Assembly (NCBI RefSeq): GCF_000021645.1
Contig: NC_011661.1
Coordinates: 806,001 to 870,000, forward strand
DNA from: Dictyoglomus turgidum DSM 6724
Lineage (GTDB): Bacteria; Dictyoglomota; Dictyoglomia; Dictyoglomales; Dictyoglomaceae
Length of the DNA: 64,000 nt
Reading direction: 5' to 3'
Part shown: positions 3,049 to 34,267 of the stretch, one piece after another
Layout of the letters: each line of letters opens with the position of its first letter
Numbering within the stretch: the stretch's first letter is position 1
Notes under the pieces: model-generated
Seen by the model: only the letters and a program-made list of their open reading frames with translations
Database searches by the model: none
Told to the model about the DNA's origin: nothing
Translations under genes and position numbers: made by a program

Positions 3049-4029
3049 ATGGCATTTAAGGAAATAGTTGGTCAAAGACAAGCAGTAGAAATATTGAGAA
3101 AAGCTATTCATGAAAATAGGTTATCTCAAACTTATCTTTTTGTAGGACCCGAAGGCGTTGGTAAAAAACTAACTGCAATTTCTCTTGTTCAAGCCTTAAA
3201 TTGTAAGATAGAACCCTTTGAGGGATGTGGTAAATGTGATATTTGTGAGGCTATTAAAAACCTTTCTTATCCTGACCTATTCTATATTGAGCCCGAGGGA
3301 CAATGGTATAAAATACAACAAGTAAGAGAATTGAGAAAAGAAGCATATGTAAAGCCATACATAGGTGATTTGAAAGTGTTTATATTAGATGAAGCACATC
3401 AATTAAGAAATGAGGGGGCTAATGCTCTTTTGAAGATATTAGAGGAACCTCCAGAGCATACATTGTTTATTCTGATAGCTTACAGACCTGAATTATTACT
3501 ACCTACAATTATTTCAAGAAGTCAAATCATAAACTTTACGTATTTGACTTATGAAGAAGTATGGCGGATAATAGAAGATAAAGTTCCTGAAGATAGGCTT
3601 GAAGTTCTTGTAAATTTATCCCAAGGAAGTGTAGGAAAGGCTTTTTTTTGGAATGATGAAAATAATTGGACAAAAAGGGTAGAACTATTTAAATATCTTA
3701 CCCTTCTTAAGAAAGACAAATTATATTCTCCTTTTGACCTTGTTGATTTTTTAGCAGAAGAAAAGGATAATGAGAAGATCATAAGCTTACTTGAGCTTGT
3801 TCTTTTTTGGTGGAGAGATCTCTTTTTCTGGAAGCTTACAGGAGATGAAAAATATATCACTCAAAAAGATTTTTCTGTAGAGATAGCAAGAAAATCTCAG
3901 GAATATTCAATTTCAGAGTTAAAAACCTTTTTTAGATTAACTCAGGATGCTATAAGAGGTATTAGAAATAATGCTAATTTATTGTTGACTTTAGAGACTT
4001 TATTTTTGAGAGTAGGTTTGGGCTCGTGA
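3049..4029 (+). CDS. holB: DNA polymerase III delta' subunit
   Basis: Clamp-loader subunit of the replicative polymerase. The 326-residue protein has an AAA+ fold with a P-loop-like GPEGVGKK at residues 33-40, a zinc module with Cys52, Cys60, Cys63 and Cys66, a DEAH box (ILDEAHQL) and an SRSQ segment where DnaX-type loaders have SRC. The zinc module and the position after darA support delta' rather than DnaX. The gene begins 2 bases after darA with no clear ribosome site, which suggests translational coupling. It overlaps ricT by 4 bases or fewer depending on the ricT start. Confidence 0.93.
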   Translation: MAFKEIVGQRQAVEILRKAIHENRLSQTYLFVGPEGVGKKLTAISLVQALNCKIEPFEGCGKCDICEAIKNLSYPDLFYIEPEGQWYKIQQVRELRKEAYVKPYIGDLKVFILDEAHQLRNEGANALLKILEEPPEHTLFILIAYRPELLLPTIISRSQIINFTYLTYEEVWRIIEDKVPEDRLEVLVNLSQGSVGKAFFWNDENNWTKRVELFKYLTLLKKDKLYSPFDLVDFLAEEKDNEKIISLLELVLFWWRDLFFWKLTGDEKYITQKDFSVEIARKSQEYSISELKTFFRLTQDAIRGIRNNANLLLTLETLFLRVGLGS

Positions 4030-21860: not shown

Positions 21861-23727
<1,867 letters not shown>

Positions 23728-23746
23728 TATGGTAGGTGATTTACAT

Positions 23747-25030
23747 GTGAGAAAAGATAAGTTTGTTATTGAAGGAGGACATAAACTTAGAGGAGAGTTA
23801 GAGATATGGGGAAGTAAAAATGCTTCTCTTCCTATAATGGCTGCTTCTGTACTGAATTCGGGAGATCTAATCTTGGATAATGTTCCTCCAGTTAAAGATA
23901 ACATTACTATGGCAGAGATTTTAAAGGTTTTAGGTATGGAAGTAGAGTTCTTAGAGGGTGATAAAGTACATATAAAAGGAGAACCTAAGGGATATAGAGC
24001 TCCCTATGAGCTAGTCTCTAAAATGAGGGCATCTTTTGAATTGATGGGACCTCTGCTTGCTCGTTTTGGCGAGGCTGAGATTCCTTATCCTGGTGGATGT
24101 AGAATAGGTTTAAGGCCTGTAGATCTACATATTAAGGGTTTTGAGAGTTTGGGTGCGGAAGTTACTGTGGAAAAGGGATATGTGTGTGCAAGAGCTAAAA
24201 AGGGTTTAAAAGGCACAAAAATTCATTTAGACAAGCCCAGTGTAGGTGCTACAAGAAATATAATGATGGCTGCAATTATGGCGGAAGGTGAGACGGTTAT
24301 CGAGAATGCTGCCTGTGAACCTGAGGTTGTGGATTTGGGAAATTTTTTGAAGATGATGGGAGCAGAAATTGAGGGTTTAGGCACATCTACTATTTATATA
24401 AAGGGAAAGAAAGATTTAAAACCTGTAGATTACTATAAAGTTATACCCGATAGAATTGCTGCGGGAACCTTTATTATTGCTGGTGTAATGTTAGGAAAAG
24501 ATTTGATTATAAAAAATGTCGAACCGGAGCATCTACAAAGCTTATTTATAAAATTAAAAGAAGCAGGAGTGGAAAGTTTTCAAATCAAGGATAAGGAAGT
24601 AAGAATTAAAGCAGCAAAGAATTGGAAAGGTATAGAGGTGACTACTATGCCATATCCCGGCTTTCCTACTGATTTGCAACCTCAAATGATGGTATTTTTA
24701 AGTCTTGCTCAAGGAAGTAGTTTAATTGTAGAGACAGTGTTTGAGAATAGATTTCTTCATGTAGGAGAATTATTGCGCCTTGGCGCCAAGATAAGCATAG
24801 ATGGTAGAACAGCTTTAATTCAAGGTGTAGAGAAGCTTAAAGGTGCACCTGTGGAGGTTACTGATTTGAGGGCTGGCGCTGCTCTTGTTCTTGCTGGTTT
24901 GGTAGCGGAAGGAACTACAGAGGTATTAGATGTGGGAGAACACATTGATAGAGGTTATGTGGCTTTAGAAGATAAGTTATCAAATTTGGGTGCTAAGATC
25001 AAAAGGGTTTACTATGAAGAAGCTAATTAA
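23747..25030 (+). CDS. murA: UDP-N-acetylglucosamine 1-carboxyvinyltransferase
   Basis: First committed step of peptidoglycan synthesis. The protein has the N-terminal SKNASLPIMAA (catalytic Lys-Asn), the GGCRIGLRPVDLHI loop with the reactive cysteine that is targeted by fosfomycin, and DLRAGAALVLAG near the end. The frame is open from 23696 inside upp, but the GTG at 23747 follows TAGGTGAT by about 7 bases and gives a family-like N terminus and 427 residues, so I prefer it. It overlaps the next gene start by 17 bases. Confidence 0.95.
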   Translation: MRKDKFVIEGGHKLRGELEIWGSKNASLPIMAASVLNSGDLILDNVPPVKDNITMAEILKVLGMEVEFLEGDKVHIKGEPKGYRAPYELVSKMRASFELMGPLLARFGEAEIPYPGGCRIGLRPVDLHIKGFESLGAEVTVEKGYVCARAKKGLKGTKIHLDKPSVGATRNIMMAAIMAEGETVIENAACEPEVVDLGNFLKMMGAEIEGLGTSTIYIKGKKDLKPVDYYKVIPDRIAAGTFIIAGVMLGKDLIIKNVEPEHLQSLFIKLKEAGVESFQIKDKEVRIKAAKNWKGIEVTTMPYPGFPTDLQPQMMVFLSLAQGSSLIVETVFENRFLHVGELLRLGAKISIDGRTALIQGVEKLKGAPVEVTDLRAGAALVLAGLVAEGTTEVLDVGEHIDRGYVALEDKLSNLGAKIKRVYYEEAN

Positions 25031-26453
25031 AGGTTTTCTAATTCTTTTTCTTGTGATTTTTTCCATAGTAATACTTTTGGCTCTCACTTCTCCTTGGTGG
25101 GCAAAGTCCTTAGTTTCTTATATCCTAGAAAAGAATTTTGGAAAATATGCTAAAGCGGAAGATGTAAAATATATTTTCCCAAATAAAGTGGAAATATCTA
25201 CTTTGGAAGTAGCAAATTTTGCTACTTTTTCTAATGTAAGTATTTCTCTTCAAAATCCTTTAAAACTTTCTCCCATTAATATTGAACTTACTAAGCCTAA
25301 AATGATTATTATTCATAATGAAAAGGGAGAATGGACTTTTCCTCAGATACCTGGGATTGATACTTCAAAGTCTAATAATGCAAATAATATTAGTATAGAA
25401 ATAAAGGCAAAGATTAAGGACGGGATAGTAGTTGTTAGGGACTTAAAGACTGAAAAAGATATAGAAGTCCAAAAAGTAAACGGTAATTTGTATTGGAAGA
25501 ATCAAATGATTACCTATAGTGTGTCTACTTCTATTAATAATCAAGAGATAAAAAGTTATGGTACTTATGACTTTTCAAAAGAGGAGGGTAATCTAACCTT
25601 TGAATTTAAAAATGCCTTAGCAGATGTATGGGCGGGAGTGTTTTTACCCAATATATTTTATATTGAGAAGGGTTACTTTACGGGCTGGATCAATACCAAG
25701 GGAGATAAGAATGACTGGGTTGTATCTGGAGAGATTAATGCTTTTAATGTGGAAGGTAGAATTGCTTCTTTTACTCCTAAATTTGTAAATGTGAGTACAA
25801 AAGTTAAGATTGATGGGGAAAATATAAATATTCTTGATGGGAGAGGAAATCTTTGGGATGCGGATATAAAGTTCTTAGGCAAAGCTACTCCTAAACCTGA
25901 AATGAACATAAGTTTTGAGAGTCTAAATTTGGAGAAAATAGACAAAGAATTTTTTAAAGGTAGCATTAATTTGAGGGGAAAGGCAAAGGGGGAATTTTCT
26001 ATTTCCGAATCTTGGGAAAATGCTATTATAAAGGGTTATATTATTGCGGAAAAAGGGTCTATTTATAATTTTGACTTTAATAATATAAAGATAGATATAG
26101 ATTCTAAATTGCCTTTAGTAAATGCAAAAATTTTAGGAGATCTTGATCTTGGTAATTTAAATGGAAAAATTTCCTTTGATCTAAAGAGTACTCTTATCAA
26201 TTTAAATCTCGAGGCTAATAATGTTAAGATAGAGAAAATAGCAGAGATTTTTAATCTTCCTAAGATGGAGGGAAAAGGAGACGTTACTATAGAAGCTAAG
26301 AAGGATAAAAAATGGAAAATTTCAGTGAGTGGTATTATTGAGAATGGTAAACTTGGAGATTATTCTGCTGAGAGCATAGAATTTAATTTTGAAAATGAAG
26401 ATATAGATTTTAATTTGCCCTTTGGTGATAGTTTTTTTTTCCAAAAAGGTTAA
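25014..26453 (+). CDS. TamB/AsmA-like envelope protein, N-terminal part (before frameshift)
   Basis: From ATG 25014 the frame codes 479 residues: a membrane anchor (about 5-28) and then long beta-rich repeats (LxLxN-type strands such as INIELTKPKMIIIHNEKGEW) as in AsmA/TamB proteins. It runs into TAA right after a 9-T run (26432-26440). One extra T would join it exactly to the following frame as one protein of 1,623 residues. TamB-like proteins span the periplasm as a hydrophobic groove and help move lipids or assemble outer membrane proteins. Its position before bamA supports this. In-frame ATG 24990 inside murA is less likely. Confidence 0.8.
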   Translation: MKKLIKGFLILFLVIFSIVILLALTSPWWAKSLVSYILEKNFGKYAKAEDVKYIFPNKVEISTLEVANFATFSNVSISLQNPLKLSPINIELTKPKMIIIHNEKGEWTFPQIPGIDTSKSNNANNISIEIKAKIKDGIVVVRDLKTEKDIEVQKVNGNLYWKNQMITYSVSTSINNQEIKSYGTYDFSKEEGNLTFEFKNALADVWAGVFLPNIFYIEKGYFTGWINTKGDKNDWVVSGEINAFNVEGRIASFTPKFVNVSTKVKIDGENINILDGRGNLWDADIKFLGKATPKPEMNISFESLNLEKIDKEFFKGSINLRGKAKGEFSISESWENAIIKGYIIAEKGSIYNFDFNNIKIDIDSKLPLVNAKILGDLDLGNLNGKISFDLKSTLINLNLEANNVKIEKIAEIFNLPKMEGKGDVTIEAKKDKKWKISVSGIIENGKLGDYSAESIEFNFENEDIDFNLPFGDSFFFQKG

Positions 26454-29400
26454 AGGTTGAGATTTTAGGTTTTTCTTACAAAGACTTAAAGGCTAAAGGG
26501 AATTTTGTTTTTTCTAAACCTTCTACAGCCTCTAATATATATAATCTCAATGGTAAGATTATTTCTAATTTAGGCATATTGTGGATCTACGGTAAGTATG
26601 ATCTGAAAAAAAATTATGGGGATATATCCTTAATTTCCTCAAACTTTAATCTAAAGGATATTAAGTCTTTGTTAGGACTAAATATACCAGAGATAAATAG
26701 TAGTACTTATTTCAGAGGAAAAATTACAGGGGATATTTTTCACTCTCCCAATTATACTTTGAGTTTTTATTTTAAATATATTAAGGTAAATAGTTTTAAT
26801 GTTGATAGGATAACTATTCATCTAAAAGGGAAAGACATAAATAACTTAGACCTTTCAGTAAGTGGAAAATATGGAGAAAACATCTTATGGGGTAAAGGAA
26901 AGTTCAATTTTAGTGGTTTTAGATTTGATGTTAGAGGGAGAATTAATTGGCAGGATCAAATTAGGATTAGCCCTTATTTTAGCTTGAATGGTGATGCTTC
27001 CTCGTGGAACTTGGAAATATATCTTAAAAATTCAAGTCTAAAATATAATAGTTACTCGTTTAATATTTCAGATTTTAATGTAAAAACTGGAAGCGATGGG
27101 AATTTGGACGGGTATGTCTTTTTTGTTGAAGGGGATCGCTTCATGTATATTAGTATTGGAGGGAGTTGGGAGAAGTGGAGTTTAACTTTTTGGGGAGAGA
27201 ATATTGAGGTATTAGGTGAAAAAATAAAATTGATAAAGTTAAATTTAGATAATAATCTTTCTGGGTGTTTTGATGCTAAGATTAGAGACTATTTCGTAAA
27301 GGGTAATTTAGACATATCTTTGGAAAATAGGACTATTATTATTAAAGACTTGTATTTTAATGAGTATTATTTGGGGGATATGAGATTGGCACTAGAAAAT
27401 AATTTTATAAAAGTTGAGGGAAATATTTTTCAGGGTTCTATTAAAGGATACTATGAGTTAGGAAAAAGGGGAGAGATTAATTTTTCAGAATTAAAATTTA
27501 GTAATTTAAGCCTTTCAGGAGGAGTTGGTATTGAAAAAGATTATTTTGTGTTTGTAATCCCTCAGTTGAGTGCAAATAGTTTAGTTTTTGAAAACATTAA
27601 AGGAAGAGTGGATTTTAAAGAGCCTAATCATATAAAGAATTTTTCTTTGGAGATTCCTTCTTACATTAAAATATATGGAGATATTTTTTTAGAAAATGAC
27701 TCTGTTAATTCTCTCTTACATATAGGATTAGGAGAAAAAGAAATTGGTTTGTTAAATCTTATAGGAAATTTTAGCAAATTTGATTTTTCGGGTAATATAT
27801 TTGGTGGGAGCCTCAAGGGATATTATGAAATTGACAAAAATACCGCTGTTTTTAATGTTGAAAATTTGGATTTATCTAATATTGATAATAATCTTGACGG
27901 TAGGATTGAGATTCTTTCTGGAGTCTTTAAGGAGGGAGGTTTATCTTTTGAAGGAAATATTCCTAAAATAAATCTTAAGGGAAATAGTATTGACAATGTT
28001 TCTTTTAGGGGTATTTATAAGGAAAATTTGAATTTTAGTTTTAATGCTTCTTATTCTGTTTTTGATTTTTCTATTCGTGGAGCTTTTGATTTTAAAGATG
28101 AAAACAAGTTCACTTTATTTATAAAGCCAAAGAATAGTGTATTTTCTGGATCTCTTGTCAAAGTTCTCACTTTAAGTTTTAGTGGAGATGTGGATAAAGA
28201 GTTTAAAAAAATAAGACTTGTTTTGAGTAAAGAAAGTAATGAGTTTTTTAAGTCTGGTATTATGACGATAAATATCCCTGAGGGGCTTATTATAGGGAAT
28301 GCATTACTAAAGGATAATGGAGAGATAGGATGTAATTTAAGTCTTTATGGAGATGGGACAATAAATTTGAAGAAAATTTCTCTTTCTGTTCTTGAAATTT
28401 TAAATATTCCTAAGTTTGAAGGTTTAATTTATGGAGATTTAAAGCTTGAGAAATGGAACATAATTGAAGCGAATCTTCGTGCAGAAGAAGTTGAAATTAA
28501 AAATTTTCCTAAAAAAGTTGGCTTGTCTTTGAATATAAAAAAGCTTGAGAATAAATATTTGTTGGACGGAAATATCTCTAAACTTTCAGAAAAACCAGCA
28601 GAGTTTAGTGGAAGTTCTGATTTAAAAGCTTTTGATTTACAGGTAAAATTCTTAGATCTAAAATTTTTAGAAGATCTTGTTAGTAAAGATTTGATTGAAG
28701 AAGGTAATCTAGGGGATGGAAAGGCAGTATTAAATATAAATGGGGATTTTAATGAATTGACTATTTATAGTGACATAACCTGGAATAATCCTTTAGTGTT
28801 CAAGTATATTAAAGATAGAGTTTACGGTGGAAATTTTTCTCTTAACTATAGAAATGGTGAGCTAAAATTGAAGGACTTTGAGATTAGGACTTTCTCTAAC
28901 AGGATGAAGATTTATGGTATAATTTTCCCTTCATTTAATATTTATGGTAAATTTAATAATATTTGTTTATCTATTCCTGGTTTAGCTAATGGTTATGTGG
29001 ACGGAGATCTCCAATTGATTAAAGAAAAAGATATATATATTGCGAGGGGAATTATTAAAATTAATAACTCTCATATCTATCTCCTTAAGAATGTGAAGAT
29101 GAATTTTAAAAGTACAAAGATGAATTTTCCTTTAAAATTAGACGTAAAAATAGAGATAGGAGATAATGTAGTATTTTCTGAGCCTAATCTTATTTATATA
29201 TCTCTTTTGGGAAGTGTCTCTGTAAAGGGTGATATCAATACTCCTATTCTTGATGGTAAAATAGATTTTATGAATGGGAATTTGAATGTTCTTGGAAATG
29301 ACTTTTTGGTAGATAGTGGATATATTAAGTTTCCGGGTTTAAGTCTTAATGAAAATATATGGGAGATATCTGCTTCAAGAATAATTCAGGGTTATAATGT

Positions 29401-29884
29401 GATTTTAAAAGGTATAAGCTTTATGGGAAATTCTTCCTTTGTTTTTAGTTCTGAACCTCCTCTTTCTTTGAGGGAAATATTGTTTTTACTTTTAGGACAG
29501 AAGAACCTTCCTATTGCAAGAGAAGAAAGTTGGACATTGTCAACGATTCTTGAAAGTATTCCTCAAAGTGTAGAGGGTGTGGTAAGCTCTGCTTTTAGTA
29601 GCTATATCCTTTCTCCTTTGTTAGGAGAACTTGAAAAAGCACTAAATGTAGATAGGATAAAAGTTGATTATATATTAGAAGGATTAATTCCTAAGTGGAA
29701 AAGTGTCTCCTTTGAAAAGTCTTTACTTAGTAATTTAAGTTTAAGTATAGTTTATTATTGGGAAGGAGATAAATTATGGAGTACTGAGTTAACATATAGA
29801 TTTAATGAAAATCTTTACTTCAAAATCTATACCTCTCCTAAAACAGAGTTCTCATTTAGTTTTGAATATAGTACTCAATTTTAA
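26432..29884 (+). CDS. tamB: TamB-like (DUF490) protein, C-terminal part (after frameshift)
   Basis: This frame is open from the T run and continues the beta-rich repeats without a sensible start of its own (the first candidate, TTG 26579, has no ribosome site). The last 300 residues carry the TamB C-terminal domain: a LGSVSVKGDINTPILDGKIDF-type strand pattern, FLVDSGYIKF, LSLREILFLLLGQ, and a tail with SPKTEFSFSFEYSTQF. It ends 18 bases before the BamA-like gene. Read with the upstream part, it makes a full-length TamB. I treat both parts as one gene. Confidence 0.82.
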   Translation, partial: FFFPKRLKVEILGFSYKDLKAKGNFVFSKPSTASNIYNLNGKIISNLGILWIYGKYDLKKNYGDISLISSNFNLKDIKSLLGLNIPEINSSTYFRGKITGDIFHSPNYTLSFYFKYIKVNSFNVDRITIHLKGKDINNLDLSVSGKYGENILWGKGKFNFSGFRFDVRGRINWQDQIRISPYFSLNGDASSWNLEIYLKNSSLKYNSYSFNISDFNVKTGSDGNLDGYVFFVEGDRFMYISIGGSWEKWSLTFWGENIEVLGEKIKLIKLNLDNNLSGCFDAKIRDYFVKGNLDISLENRTIIIKDLYFNEYYLGDMRLALENNFIKVEGNIFQGSIKGYYELGKRGEINFSELKFSNLSLSGGVGIEKDYFVFVIPQLSANSLVFENIKGRVDFKEPNHIKNFSLEIPSYIKIYGDIFLENDSVNSLLHIGLGEKEIGLLNLIGNFSKFDFSGNIFGGSLKGYYEIDKNTAVFNVENLDLSNIDNNLDGRIEILSGVFKEGGLSFEGNIPKINLKGNSIDNVSFRGIYKENLNFSFNASYSVFDFSIRGAFDFKDENKFTLFIKPKNSVFSGSLVKVLTLSFSGDVDKEFKKIRLVLSKESNEFFKSGIMTINIPEGLIIGNALLKDNGEIGCNLSLYGDGTINLKKISLSVLEILNIPKFEGLIYGDLKLEKWNIIEANLRAEEVEIKNFPKKVGLSLNIKKLENKYLLDGNISKLSEKPAEFSGSSDLKAFDLQVKFLDLKFLEDLVSKDLIEEGNLGDGKAVLNINGDFNELTIYSDITWNNPLVFKYIKDRVYGGNFSLNYRNGELKLKDFEIRTFSNRMKIYGIIFPSFNIYGKFNNICLSIPGLANGYVDGDLQLIKEKDIYIARGIIKINNSHIYLLKNVKMNFKSTKMNFPLKLDVKIEIGDNVVFSEPNLIYISLLGSVSVKGDINTPILDGKIDFMNGNLNVLGNDFLVDSGYIKFPGLSLNENIWEISASRIIQGYNVILKGISFMGNSSFVFSSEPPLSLREILFLLLGQKNLPIAREESWTLSTILESIPQSVEGVVSSAFSSYILSPLLGELEKALNVDRIKVDYILEGLIPKWKSVSFEKSLLSNLSLSIVYYWEGDKLWSTELTYRFNENLYFKIYTSPKTEFSFSFEYSTQF

Positions 29885-29902
29885 AAAAGGAAGGTGATGG
29901 GA

Positions 29903-32782
29903 TTGGATAAAAGATTTATCTTTATTCTTGTCTTAATATTTGCTTTAGTCTGTGCTACTTTTGCCCAGAGCGAGTATAGAATTGCGGACATTATAATAAA
30001 AGGGAATCAAAAGATTTCTAGTCAAGAAATATTAAAAATAGCAGGTATTAATAAGGGGATGAATATAAGGGATGAGCAAATTGATAAAGTAAAAGAAAAA
30101 CTTGATAGTTCTACCTATTTTATTTCTGTGGTGATAAACAAGATTTCTGGAAAAGATGGAATAATCCTTGAGATAAATGTAGTAGAATCTCCTTTTCTCA
30201 TTTTTATTAGTGGGATTTCTTTTCAAGGGTTGCAAAAGATTAGTATTAAAGATCTACAAAACCTTATAATTTTACCTACTATTGGGTGGGTCACTGATGA
30301 ATTGGTTTGGGAACAAAGAAGAAGATTCATGTCCACGGGATATTTCTCAAAGGTAGATGTTAAAGAGGTGAAATCAGACGGGAGTATAATAGTTGTTTTT
30401 AACTTTCAAGAAAATCCTATTTTGGAAAGGATAGAAATTAAGGGAATACAAAGCCTAAAAAGGGAAGATGTATTGTCTATGATTGGAATTTCAGAGGGAA
30501 TTTTAATATCAGAAGATGATTTAATGGCTAAAAGAGATGTTCTTTTAAAATCAAACATATTTTCAAAGGTGGAATTTAACATAGATAAGAAAGATAATAA
30601 GCTTTGCCTAATAATTGATTTAGAGGAGAATCCTCTTATTTCAAGAGTTATCTTAGAGGGTAATAACAAGTCTAGCATAAAAGATATTCAGAATATCCTT
30701 TTCATATCAGGAGATGTTTCGGAAAATTCAATTCTTTTAAAAGATAAGGTTTATTATTCTGAAGATCTGATGGGTTTATGGAAAAATAAATTGCTAGACT
30801 CAGGGTATTTTAAGGGGGTTGAAATTACTTCTAAGAGAAACGATAAGATTGTGGAGGTCAAAATTGTAGTTACAGAAAATCCATGGGTTGTTTCAGTAGA
30901 TGTTAAAGGATTAATAAATGCTAAAAAAGATAAAGTTATGGAGATAATTTCAAAAAGGGGTAGGGGATTTTTGAGTGACAAATATTTAAATAATTTAAAA
31001 GGAAAACTGCTAGATACAGGTTGGTTTTCTTCTGTGGATGTGAAGATTATTATAACTCCTAATAATTATGCATATCTTACCTTCATAGTTAACGAGTATC
31101 CTATTTTAAAAAGTATTGAATATTCAGGTTTGAAACTTCTTTCTCAGGAAGAAATTAAGAAATATTCTATATTGAAAGAGGGAGATTTTGTTTCTGATGA
31201 TAAGGTAGAAGAACAAATCACAAAATTTGAAGGTGTAGGATACTTTTCCAAAGTAAAGGTGGAGAAGAACATAGAAAACGATAAAATATCTCTTAATTTT
31301 ATCTTTACTGAGAATCCAGAGATTAAAAAAATTGTCTTCGATGGACTTTTAGGTATATCAGAAAGGGAGATTAAGCAGATTCTACTAAATAGAGAAGGAC
31401 AACCCTTTAATCAGATATTTTTAGATAAAGATGTACAGAATATTTTGGCTTTATTACAAAACAAGGGATATGTTTTTGCCTCTATTGAAAATGTCATTTT
31501 CAATGAGAAGGGGGAGTTAATTTTCTATTTTAAAGATTATAAGGTAGAGGATATTCAAGTGGAAATTATACCTCCTACTGAAACTTCTTCTCTAAGTTTT
31601 CTTGCCATATTCAGAAGACCTACGGATAAAAATGTGATAAGTAGAGAGATATCACTATCTGTTGGGGAATCTGTTAACATAGAAAAGATAAAAGCTGATC
31701 TTCAGAGAATATATAATGTGGGGATATTTGAAGATGTTTCGGTAAGGTTCGACAGAGGAAGCACAGAAGATAAGGTTAAAGTGGTATATGTGGCGAAGGA
31801 AAAACTTTCAGGATCTTTTAACTTTGGTGGTGGATATGCTACTGATGTGGGGCTATACGGGTTTGTGGAATATAAAGAAGGAAATTTATTTGGAAAGGCT
31901 CAACAGCTGAGTTTACAGCTTTCTCTAACTTCTTCAGCTAAGATTAACTATCAATTAAGCTTCAAAGATCCATGGTTTTTAGGTGGAAGAAATGCTTTTC
32001 AACTGGATCTTTATGACAGGAAGGTAACGGTCACTGATGCTACAATATCCTCCACTTCTACTTTGGAAAAAGCAGGAGGAGCTTTCTCTTTCTCCTATCC
32101 TCTTGAGAATTTCTGGAGTATAAGCCTGGGTTTTAAGTATGAAAATATTATTCCCATAGAGTCAGCTACTATGACTTCTTCTACTACTGTGGCAAGCTTT
32201 AATGTGGGAATATGGAGAGATACTCGAGATTTCTATGTAAATCCTACGCAGGGCTCAAGGCAGTATCTTAATATTGAATTTGCAGGGGGAGGAAGCGAAT
32301 CTAATTTTACAAAATACAATGCAGACTTTCAATGGCATATTCCCTTAACAAACAGGGAAGATTTGATTTCTATTTCAAAACAGAAGGAAAGGCAAGTTTT
32401 GTCTTTGAGAATAGGTTTTGGTTTTGAGGAGGGTAATTTCCCATCCACAGAACTTTTTACCCTTGGTGGTGCGGGAAGCATAAGAGGATTTTCAGACAAT
32501 ATTTTTAAGGGAGATACTTATGTCCTTCTTAATGTACAATATAGAATTCCATTAGGGAATAATCTATATGGTGTATTATTTGTGGATTCTGGAAATGCTT
32601 GGTATAGACAAGATTTGAGTTCTTTCTCCGATATTAAATTATACACAGGTATTGGTTTTGGATTAAGGTATGATACTCTTATCATACCTATAAGATTTGA
32701 CTTTGGATATAACTTTGGAAATGATCCCTCAGATCCTAATACAAAATGGAGGGTGCATTTTAGTTTTGGTGATATTTTTTAA
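29903..32782 (+). CDS. bamA: BamA/Omp85 outer membrane assembly protein with about eight POTRA domains
   Basis: Inserts beta-barrel proteins into the outer membrane. After a signal peptide ending near Ala-Gln, I count about eight units of some 75 residues with the POTRA pattern (strand, two helices, a GYF/STYF-S-V turn, strand, ENP-type end), then a C-terminal barrel with the Omp85 GGAGSIRGF motif (the lid-lock RGF) and a terminal Phe. BamA of proteobacteria has five POTRA units. GTG 29894 and ATG 29897 are too close to AAGGAAGG; TTG 29903 has correct spacing, giving 959 residues. Two Skp-like genes and lpx genes follow, as in diderm bacteria generally. Confidence 0.93.
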   Translation: MDKRFIFILVLIFALVCATFAQSEYRIADIIIKGNQKISSQEILKIAGINKGMNIRDEQIDKVKEKLDSSTYFISVVINKISGKDGIILEINVVESPFLIFISGISFQGLQKISIKDLQNLIILPTIGWVTDELVWEQRRRFMSTGYFSKVDVKEVKSDGSIIVVFNFQENPILERIEIKGIQSLKREDVLSMIGISEGILISEDDLMAKRDVLLKSNIFSKVEFNIDKKDNKLCLIIDLEENPLISRVILEGNNKSSIKDIQNILFISGDVSENSILLKDKVYYSEDLMGLWKNKLLDSGYFKGVEITSKRNDKIVEVKIVVTENPWVVSVDVKGLINAKKDKVMEIISKRGRGFLSDKYLNNLKGKLLDTGWFSSVDVKIIITPNNYAYLTFIVNEYPILKSIEYSGLKLLSQEEIKKYSILKEGDFVSDDKVEEQITKFEGVGYFSKVKVEKNIENDKISLNFIFTENPEIKKIVFDGLLGISEREIKQILLNREGQPFNQIFLDKDVQNILALLQNKGYVFASIENVIFNEKGELIFYFKDYKVEDIQVEIIPPTETSSLSFLAIFRRPTDKNVISREISLSVGESVNIEKIKADLQRIYNVGIFEDVSVRFDRGSTEDKVKVVYVAKEKLSGSFNFGGGYATDVGLYGFVEYKEGNLFGKAQQLSLQLSLTSSAKINYQLSFKDPWFLGGRNAFQLDLYDRKVTVTDATISSTSTLEKAGGAFSFSYPLENFWSISLGFKYENIIPIESATMTSSTTVASFNVGIWRDTRDFYVNPTQGSRQYLNIEFAGGGSESNFTKYNADFQWHIPLTNREDLISISKQKERQVLSLRIGFGFEEGNFPSTELFTLGGAGSIRGFSDNIFKGDTYVLLNVQYRIPLGNNLYGVLFVDSGNAWYRQDLSSFSDIKLYTGIGFGLRYDTLIIPIRFDFGYNFGNDPSDPNTKWRVHFSFGDIF

Positions 32783-32803
32783 AAAGGAATGGAGGGGTAT
32801 AAA

Positions 32804-34267
32804 TTGAGAAAGATCATTGCTTTTCTAATAGTTAGCATAATACTTTTGGGTGTAATGTATGGAGAAGAAAATTATCTTATTCAGGGAATAGTGTTTGATG
32901 GAGTGAAAAATGTTCCATATGACATCTTACAAAATACTCTTAATATAAAGGTTTTTAGCTCTTATTCTAAGGACTACATTGAGAGAGAAGTACAAAAACT
33001 TAAAAATACTGGTTATTTTAGAGCTTTAACCTATGAGCTTGTTAAGAGAGATGTGGGATATGAATTAGTGATTCATGTAGAAGAATTGCCTGTTATATCT
33101 AAGATTATATTTCCTGATACTAAACTTATTCCTATTGAAGAAATTAAAGGTATTCTTTATAGTAAGGAACGGGGATTTTTTAGTGAAGAAAAGGCTAAAG
33201 AAGATTGTGATAAAATTGAAAAATATTATATTAAAAAAGGCTTTGTTTTAGCCCAAAGTCCTGAATATTCTTTCAAAGATAACATACTGACCTTTAACTG
33301 GAAAGAGCTTCCTCCTATAGGAAGAATTGAGATAAAGGCAAAGGGTTATTGGGAAGAACCTCTAATAAGGAATTTTCTTAAATTAAGAATTGGTGAGTAT
33401 TTAGATATGAGGAAGATTGAAGAATTAAATGATTTTTTCTATAAGAAGAATATAAAAATTAAGGTTGAACCTGAGTGGAAAATTGAAGATGAGAATACTG
33501 TTCTTTATCTTAACGTGGTGTACTTATCTCCCCGAGAGGTCTCCCTCTCTTATAACTACAATAAATCTATTGATCTAAAAATGGGCTACTTTTTAGGAAG
33601 CATTGGCTATCTTGAGACATCACTATCTTCTGACCTTCAAGGGAATTTAGATTATGGAATTAATTTACAAAGTTATTATTTTGATTTAGACATAAATAAT
33701 AAGGGCTACAGTATTGCCTTAAAAAGATTGATGTCAAAAACAAATAACATAGAAGCTGAATTAGGCTATAAAGGGAGCTTTGTTTTAAATGATAAGGCTT
33801 TGTTTATCTATTTTACTCAAGATTTAACAAAGACTTATAAAGGGATACCTGAATCTGGAAGGTATATAAGGTTAGGCTTAGATTTTCATGGGGGTGGATC
33901 TTCTTATAACTTCTCTATTTTATCTTTTGAGGGTAAGTACTATTTAAGCTTAGGTGAGGGTTTAGATAGGAAGATAATTGGAGTTGAAGGTGAAATAGGG
34001 TACTCCTTTGGTGATTTACCAGATGGCGGATATTTAGGAGTAAGGCTTTTATATATAATGCCTTTGGAATATCATACATATTTGAGTTTAAAGATTGGAG
34101 GTGATAGCAATTTTAGCAGTTTGAGTTCTTTTTCTGAGTTAAACTTTAACATCTTAGGTGGTTTTTGTTGGTATAGCATAAACGAACCTGTAGAGTATCT
34201 TATGAATTTAGAAAGTGATTTTGTGAGGGTTTTAAATTTAAAGCTTGAAACAAAAATAAAATTTTAG
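32804..34267 (+). CDS. Second, small Omp85-like outer membrane protein with three POTRA-like units
   Basis: A 487-residue exported protein: signal peptide, three POTRA-like units (about residues 20-240), then a barrel-like region of about 240 residues with alternating aromatic strands and a C-terminal Phe. The upstream frame opens at ATG 32789, but GGAGGGG at 32791-32797 supports TTG 32804. I do not see the RGF motif, and the barrel is shorter than in BamA, so it may be a partner or a TamA-like protein rather than a second insertase. Its place between bamA and skp suggests work in the same pathway. Confidence 0.75.
   Translation: MRKIIAFLIVSIILLGVMYGEENYLIQGIVFDGVKNVPYDILQNTLNIKVFSSYSKDYIEREVQKLKNTGYFRALTYELVKRDVGYELVIHVEELPVISKIIFPDTKLIPIEEIKGILYSKERGFFSEEKAKEDCDKIEKYYIKKGFVLAQSPEYSFKDNILTFNWKELPPIGRIEIKAKGYWEEPLIRNFLKLRIGEYLDMRKIEELNDFFYKKNIKIKVEPEWKIEDENTVLYLNVVYLSPREVSLSYNYNKSIDLKMGYFLGSIGYLETSLSSDLQGNLDYGINLQSYYFDLDINNKGYSIALKRLMSKTNNIEAELGYKGSFVLNDKALFIYFTQDLTKTYKGIPESGRYIRLGLDFHGGGSSYNFSILSFEGKYYLSLGEGLDRKIIGVEGEIGYSFGDLPDGGYLGVRLLYIMPLEYHTYLSLKIGGDSNFSSLSSFSELNFNILGGFCWYSINEPVEYLMNLESDFVRVLNLKLETKIKF

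Follow-up and report, generated by a model that had tools for sequence, protein, structure and literature searches.

The tamB locus of the hot-spring bacterium Dictyoglomus turgidum DSM 6724 lies in the window analyzed here, a 64-kb stretch of the complete 1,855,560-bp genome, and consists of two long plus-strand frames that meet at a run of nine T. The first frame (25014–26453; ATG to TAA, 479 residues), which is taken below as the 0 frame, is predicted to encode an N-terminal membrane helix and the first β-taco repeats, as indicated by its translation, its alignment with five orthologues (38–70% identity), and a structure model. The second frame (26432–29884; 1,150 codons), which is −1 relative to the first, encodes the predicted remainder of the β-taco and the C-terminal TamB domain, as indicated by its translation, its orthologues, and the ratio of nonsynonymous to synonymous substitution rates (dN/dS), and it contains no further stop or indel. 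The 22 nucleotides (nt) of overlap fall at the T9 run (26432–26440), a candidate slippage site that reads AGT TTT TTT TTC in the 0 frame and contains the −1 heptamer T TTT TTT. The first-pass annotation, which was made from a single sequence, described two frames meeting at a nine-T run, a single TamB-like frame restored by one added T, and a second part with no credible start, and all three observations are borne out. Addition of one T yields 473 + 3 + 1147 = 1,623 residues (loss of two T yields 1,622), and the earliest ATG, GTG, or TTG codon in frame 2, a TTG at 26579, is not preceded by a ribosome-binding site. The evidence, which comes from sequence comparison, points to programmed frameshifting in the sole tamB gene of Dictyoglomota, probably, in Dictyoglomus, by slippage of RNA polymerase at T9, which would give a short and a full-length form of the protein.

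The position of the frame change is narrowly bounded. In the codon listing, the −1 frame is closed directly before the T run by a TAG (26429–26431); D. thermophilum and one species of another genus (G005) have this TAG as well, immediately ahead of the run. The 0 frame ends at a TAA (26451–26453), three codons past the codon that ends the T run, a codon position that all five species with a split gene share, and the 479-residue product ends in SFFFQKG. Because frame 2 is shut upstream, the frame change is confined to 26432–26453, and the T run is the sole slippery sequence within this interval that is common to all split relatives.

The genome set comprises seven Dictyoglomota species, and the junction is assembled in six of them, the seventh (G001) having an assembly gap at this place; a scan of GTDB r220 contigs for further genomes returned contigs of G001 and G005 again and nothing more. 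Of the six, D. turgidum, D. thermophilum (G002), and G003 belong to the genus Dictyoglomus (genus 1), and G004, G005, and G006 to a second genus (genus 2). The comparison with sister genomes that the first-pass annotation had proposed reveals that the split recurs: five of the six species have the same two-frame layout at the same site and with the same sign, the long frame in each requiring a −1 shift or one added T. The junction sequences are AGT TTT TTT TTC CAA AAA GGT TAA (D. turgidum), AGT TTT TTT TTC CAA AGA GGT TAA (D. thermophilum), AGT TTT TTT TTC CTA AAA AGT TAA (G003), AGT TTT TTT TTC CAA AGA AAG TAA (G005), and AAT TTT TTT TCC CAA GCA AAG TAA (G006). Four split species thus have an uninterrupted A/T run of nine or longer, and the fifth, G006, has T8.

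Homopolymers of nine bases invite sequencing errors, above all with 454, and a read error at the run was one of the options raised for the split. The D. turgidum data did include 454 reads, at 20x, alongside 20x Sanger coverage (PMC5167688), and an error of the same length and sign would have to be repeated in four genomes, and of the same sign in G006, which makes five independently assembled genomes in all. The agreement of these five assemblies, one of them with 20x Sanger reads, excludes a sequencing or assembly error for practical purposes. Phase variation, in which replication slippage in the T run toggles TamB on and off within a population, would suit the classical layout of a homopolymer in a surface-related gene, but all five species are in one "off" phase of the same sign, whereas with a variable run some of them should be switched on or show the alternative "off" phase. 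Nine-base runs are also rare in these genomes and are not enriched in surface genes, and this explanation is very improbable.

The sixth species, G004 (gene on the minus strand; run at plus-strand positions 3852–3860, L015), retains T9 with one net extra base after it (AAT TTT TTT TTC CTC AAA GAA GTA AAT), and has a single open frame of 1,624 codons, in which slippage would truncate the protein instead of extending it. G004 is sister to G005 and G006 in a maximum-likelihood tree, and thus the shortest history starts from an ancestor with a split gene and has G004 revert once; the tree has no outgroup, which leaves room for two independent origins. The T run is retained although protein identity among these species is down to 30–70% and synonymous divergence (dS) is 0.9–1.7. 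A two-frame organization that is conserved in non-identical homologues, which is a criterion of Baranov et al. (2005) for genes of this kind, is accordingly found in five species at 30–70% protein identity.

As judged from substitution patterns, both frames are under purifying selection at the protein level. Between D. turgidum and D. thermophilum (dS about 1), dN/dS is 0.18 upstream of the junction and 0.24 downstream of it. The ratio is 0.17 over the 49 frame-2 codons ahead of the first possible start in D. turgidum, and 0.14 over the 151 aligned codons ahead of the first possible start in D. thermophilum. Such low values ahead of any possible start indicate that translation continues from part one into the very first codons of part two, which excludes both a pseudogene and an internal start. 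Overlapping genes are common sites of termination-reinitiation, and the overlap of the two tamB frames could be read in this way, with part two made by reinitiation or at a start of its own and the two halves assembling afterwards. However, no start is conserved, the first in-frame ATG, GTG, or TTG codon of part two being at +147, +456, +42, +810, and +240 nt across five species; the codons before it are under purifying selection, and G004 encodes both halves as a single protein; two separate proteins are therefore highly improbable. An equally slim chance is given to the null mutation that was raised as an option in the first-pass annotation, with tamB as a decaying pseudogene in D. turgidum. 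Two frames, the second without a start, do suggest it when one genome is viewed singly, but the split is conserved in five species of two genera with dN/dS of about 0.2 on both sides, and the gene is the sole TamB gene of the genome, within an intact outer-membrane gene cluster (PMC5167688). The frame change is almost certainly a conserved and used one, neither an error nor a null mutation, and the full-length protein is very likely made through slippage of either RNA polymerase or the ribosome.

The frequency of A/T runs in these genomes bears on which of the two machines slips. The D. turgidum genome contains 234 A/T runs of exactly eight (256 eight-base matches minus two for each nine-base run) and 11 of nine or more, a ratio of 0.047 as against 0.46 expected from codon randomization; codon randomization of the window genes, scaled up to the 1,855,560-bp genome, predicts about 150 T9/A9 runs. 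In the window genes themselves, runs of exactly eight number 9 in the real sequence and 11.2 in the codon-randomized one, whereas runs of nine or more number 1 and 5.2, respectively. The nine-to-eight ratio is 0.044 in D. thermophilum, 0.066 in G004, 0.040 in G005, and 0.043 in G006, and in all five genomes counted the drop from eight to nine is about tenfold steeper than codon randomization predicts. A sharp transition in run frequency has been interpreted as selection against transcriptional slippage (Baranov et al., PMC1088944), and the drop observed here suggests that slippage becomes costly at a run length of nine in Dictyoglomota. Avoidance by the host genome of runs of this length, a criterion for a transcriptional slippage gene, is thus seen as a sharp fall from eight to nine.

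In the mechanism that we favor, RNA polymerase slips on the T9 run at 26432–26440 and some transcripts would carry 10 (or 7) U. These would be read straight through to give a TamB of 1,623 (or 1,622) residues, while unslipped and otherwise slipped transcripts would end a few codons past the run and give a form of 479 to 482 residues, which would comprise the predicted membrane anchor and the beginning of the lipid-binding β-taco. In all six species, every frame but the full-length one meets a stop no more than seven codons past the run, and whatever its extent, slippage would therefore yield only two length classes of protein. From these features we infer that slippage occurs, in some proportion of transcripts, and that RNA polymerase rather than the ribosome is its agent. 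In the genus Dictyoglomus, RNA polymerase is probably the machine that slips, with the ribosome as a serious competitor: T9 is kept against the genome trend, while a ribosomal site needs seven T only, which favors RNA polymerase.

Several points weigh against this reading. Every T9 necessarily holds an in-phase T_TTT_TTT heptamer, and the T8 of G006 is a length that these genomes tolerate, so that polymerase slippage is less compelling there and a ribosomal −1 shift is plausible in that species. Avoidance of T9 might equally stem from replication slippage. The conservation of three phenylalanine residues (FFF) together with a strong TTT preference (89% in tamB) accounts for part of the persistence of the T run. 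Near stops are individually unremarkable, being seen at 24–41% of background positions (11% in G003), and they are therefore weak evidence for a selected short form. In addition, GAAGGAGA, a Shine-Dalgarno-like motif and as such of a known kind of ribosomal −1 stimulator, is found upstream of the run in G004, G005, and G006.

The rival to which the last point belongs is programmed −1 ribosomal frameshifting on T_TTT_TTT or T_TTT_TTC, with faithfully copied T9 transcripts (T8 in G006) that give the same two proteins. The heptamer is present in the right phase in all six species, the T8 one included, and the sign of the shift is −1. The distance from the GGAG end of GAAGGAGA to the run is 10 nt in G006, 13 nt in G004, and 16 nt in G005, which is near the stimulator spacing in Escherichia coli dnaX. 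In G004 and G006, pairing of the 20 nt before the run with the core of the anti-Shine-Dalgarno sequence surpasses that at about 98% of background positions, and in G005 that at 86%. In opposition to this, GAAGGAGA is also present in G004, which needs no shift, and it falls in GAA-GGA-GAN codons, which are common in such genomes. A Shine-Dalgarno-like stimulator conserved in genus 1 was looked for and not found: there is only GGTGAT near the run in D. turgidum and D. thermophilum (94th percentile for the extended anti-Shine-Dalgarno sequence), and nothing of the kind in G003. Neither is there a conserved downstream structure, since folding of the 40, 60, and 80 nt after the run in the six species gave no consistent signal (by simple folding, with pseudoknots outside the model); the predicted folding energy is about zero at 70°C and in genus 1 is no better than that of shuffled sequence. 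Finally, seven T would suffice for a ribosomal site, but the run stays at nine despite the avoidance of this length in the genomes. A ribosomal shift as the general explanation is rather unlikely. Perhaps the ribosome acts in genus 2, with the Shine-Dalgarno-like stimulator, and polymerase slippage in genus 1, as homologous dnaX genes use one machine or the other. The first-pass option of slippage by polymerase or ribosome is thus supported as to slippage, and as to the machine the evidence leans toward RNA polymerase in Dictyoglomus without settling it.

In part two, the TamB domain (PF04357) is matched at 29102–29881 on the plus strand (E = 3.7e-20; 73 bits against a cut-off of 22.4); the single-frame protein of G004 matches the same profile at 100.6 bits. 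One TamB domain only is present in the D. turgidum genome. The predicted N-terminal membrane anchor helix (residues 2–25; 25017–25088, plus strand) is supported by modeled secondary structure and a hydrophobic sequence, and is followed in the model of the N-terminal part, as would be expected, by β strands among which a short helix occurs at intervals of about 100 residues. The short form, to which this model corresponds, would thus combine a membrane helix with many successive β-taco-like strands (mean predicted local distance difference test score, 78.6) and terminate in a loop of low confidence and variable length; in the model of part two, strands resume at once, at low overall confidence (predicted template modeling score, 0.38). 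A Foldseek search with the N-terminal part gave no significant match (best E = 0.016; TamB chain 9xdc_B, E = 0.2), and the fold assignment therefore rests on secondary structure and on the Pfam match of part two.

An Omp85 gene, the expected partner of TamB, is among the neighbors on the plus strand. The gene upstream (23696–25030), which overlaps the start of tamB by 17 nt, is presumably MurA-like (UDP-N-acetylglucosamine 1-carboxyvinyltransferase-like) from its translation. The next gene downstream (29894–32782) is a BamA/TamA-like Omp85 gene with five POTRA matches and a TIGR03303 match above the cut-off, which does not distinguish TamA from BamA. It is followed by a second POTRA-containing, BamA-like gene (32789–34267), identified by profile matches and regarded as a BamA orthologue in earlier work (PMC5167688). 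The order tamB–bamA–bamA agrees with the cluster Dtur_0814–0816 of D. turgidum DSM 6724 (PMC5167688). The predicted layout resembles that of diderm TamB and AsmA-like proteins, with an N-terminal inner-membrane helix, a long β-taco, a C-terminal TamB domain, and an adjoining BamA/TamA-like Omp85 gene (PMC8593681). The periplasmic part of the short form, ca. 435 residues, would lie at the short end of the 425–1,125 residues of AsmA-like paralogues (PMC8593681); elsewhere, however, long and short proteins are encoded by separate genes, whereas one Dictyoglomota tamB would give both.

By analogy, the closest parallel to Dictyoglomota tamB is the type VI secretion system gene tssM (tssM1 of Citrobacter rodentium and tssM3 of Yersinia pseudotuberculosis), which also encodes an inner-membrane-anchored, envelope-spanning protein, has a premature stop a few codons past a homopolymer, and gives two length variants by slippage (PMC4256274). 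Slippage yields the full-length form in C. rodentium and the short form in Yersinia, the same reversal as between the five split species and G004; it occurs at 20–25%, and both forms are needed in C. rodentium (PMC4256274). The tssM case differs in that the run is A11 in C. rodentium, slippage was shown experimentally, and two family members only are involved, whereas tamB has T9 (or T8) in two genera and is known from sequence. The analogy with thermophile dnaX that the first-pass annotation drew is apt in kind: dnaX gives two nested proteins (τ and γ) from one gene, its homologues use the ribosome (E. coli) or the polymerase (A9 in Thermus thermophilus), and Thermus is a thermophile whose dnaX has stops near the run in both other frames, as is the case in all six Dictyoglomota species. 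The analogy fails in detail, as the Thermus run is A9 and that of tamB T9 (PMC3711429, PMC5009743), and as full-length DnaX is encoded in the 0 frame in E. coli and Thermus and is truncated by slippage, whereas slippage would extend TamB except in G004. Further bacteria, Chlorobi among them, are known to have dnaX in two frames (PMC3711429). The mxiE and spa13 genes of Shigella also need transcriptional slippage to reach a C-terminal extension in another frame (PMC5009743), but are plasmid secretion-system genes that are not known to be conserved over a phylum, and the spa13 extension comprises 112 residues only.

Other nine-base runs are conserved in Dictyoglomus. D. turgidum has 11 nine-base runs, one of which is a second sense T9, positioned in frame within an AMIN-Amidase_3 gene (L032, G000:C1:1367143-1367151, minus strand). 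In genomes that avoid such runs, this one (AAT TTT TTT TTG) is conserved in D. thermophilum (L062/L081) and G003 (L082) and is absent from genus 2, where the orthologue in G005 (L085, G005:C33:4458-6071) has one in-frame TAG inside the match. Slippage at this run would cut off the amidase within 3–7 residues in D. turgidum and D. thermophilum and yield an AMIN-only protein, which makes the gene a dnaX-like candidate. The dnaX gene of D. turgidum was considered as a second slippage gene and set aside, as its locus (G000:C1:264314) is absent from the T9/A9 runs of the genome. D. turgidum and D. thermophilum also share two conserved T9/A9 runs outside coding sequence: L028/L047 lies between two divergent or neighboring genes, and L030/L057 adjoins a GC-rich inverted repeat resembling an intrinsic terminator.

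A literature search yielded no account of frameshifting in tamB/DUF490 or in Dictyoglomus, and the main text of the GeneTack survey (PMC3711429) names neither Dictyoglomus nor TamB, although its supplementary clusters might list them. Recoding of this kind is already known; what sets this case apart is which gene is involved and that the site is conserved in two genera. Phospholipid transport between the two membranes is the presumed function of TamB-type proteins, whose length decides whether the periplasm can be spanned. A role of its own for the short form is conceivable, though the case for it falls short of probable. More tentatively still, the phylum may make both an anchored stub and an envelope-spanning form of its only TamB-type lipid bridge from one slippage-site gene. 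Selection would then keep the mixture and not the frame, one species having swapped the default form with the T run retained, and the machine may have changed from RNA polymerase (T9, genus 1) to the ribosome (T8 with a Shine-Dalgarno-like motif, genus 2); the in-frame T9 of the AMIN-amidase gene would act likewise in Dictyoglomus. For annotation, D. turgidum tamB should be called neither a pseudogene nor two genes. If the proposed reading is true, tamB would provide a rare example of recoding retained across a deep-branching phylum of thermophiles, and the role of the short form would become testable.

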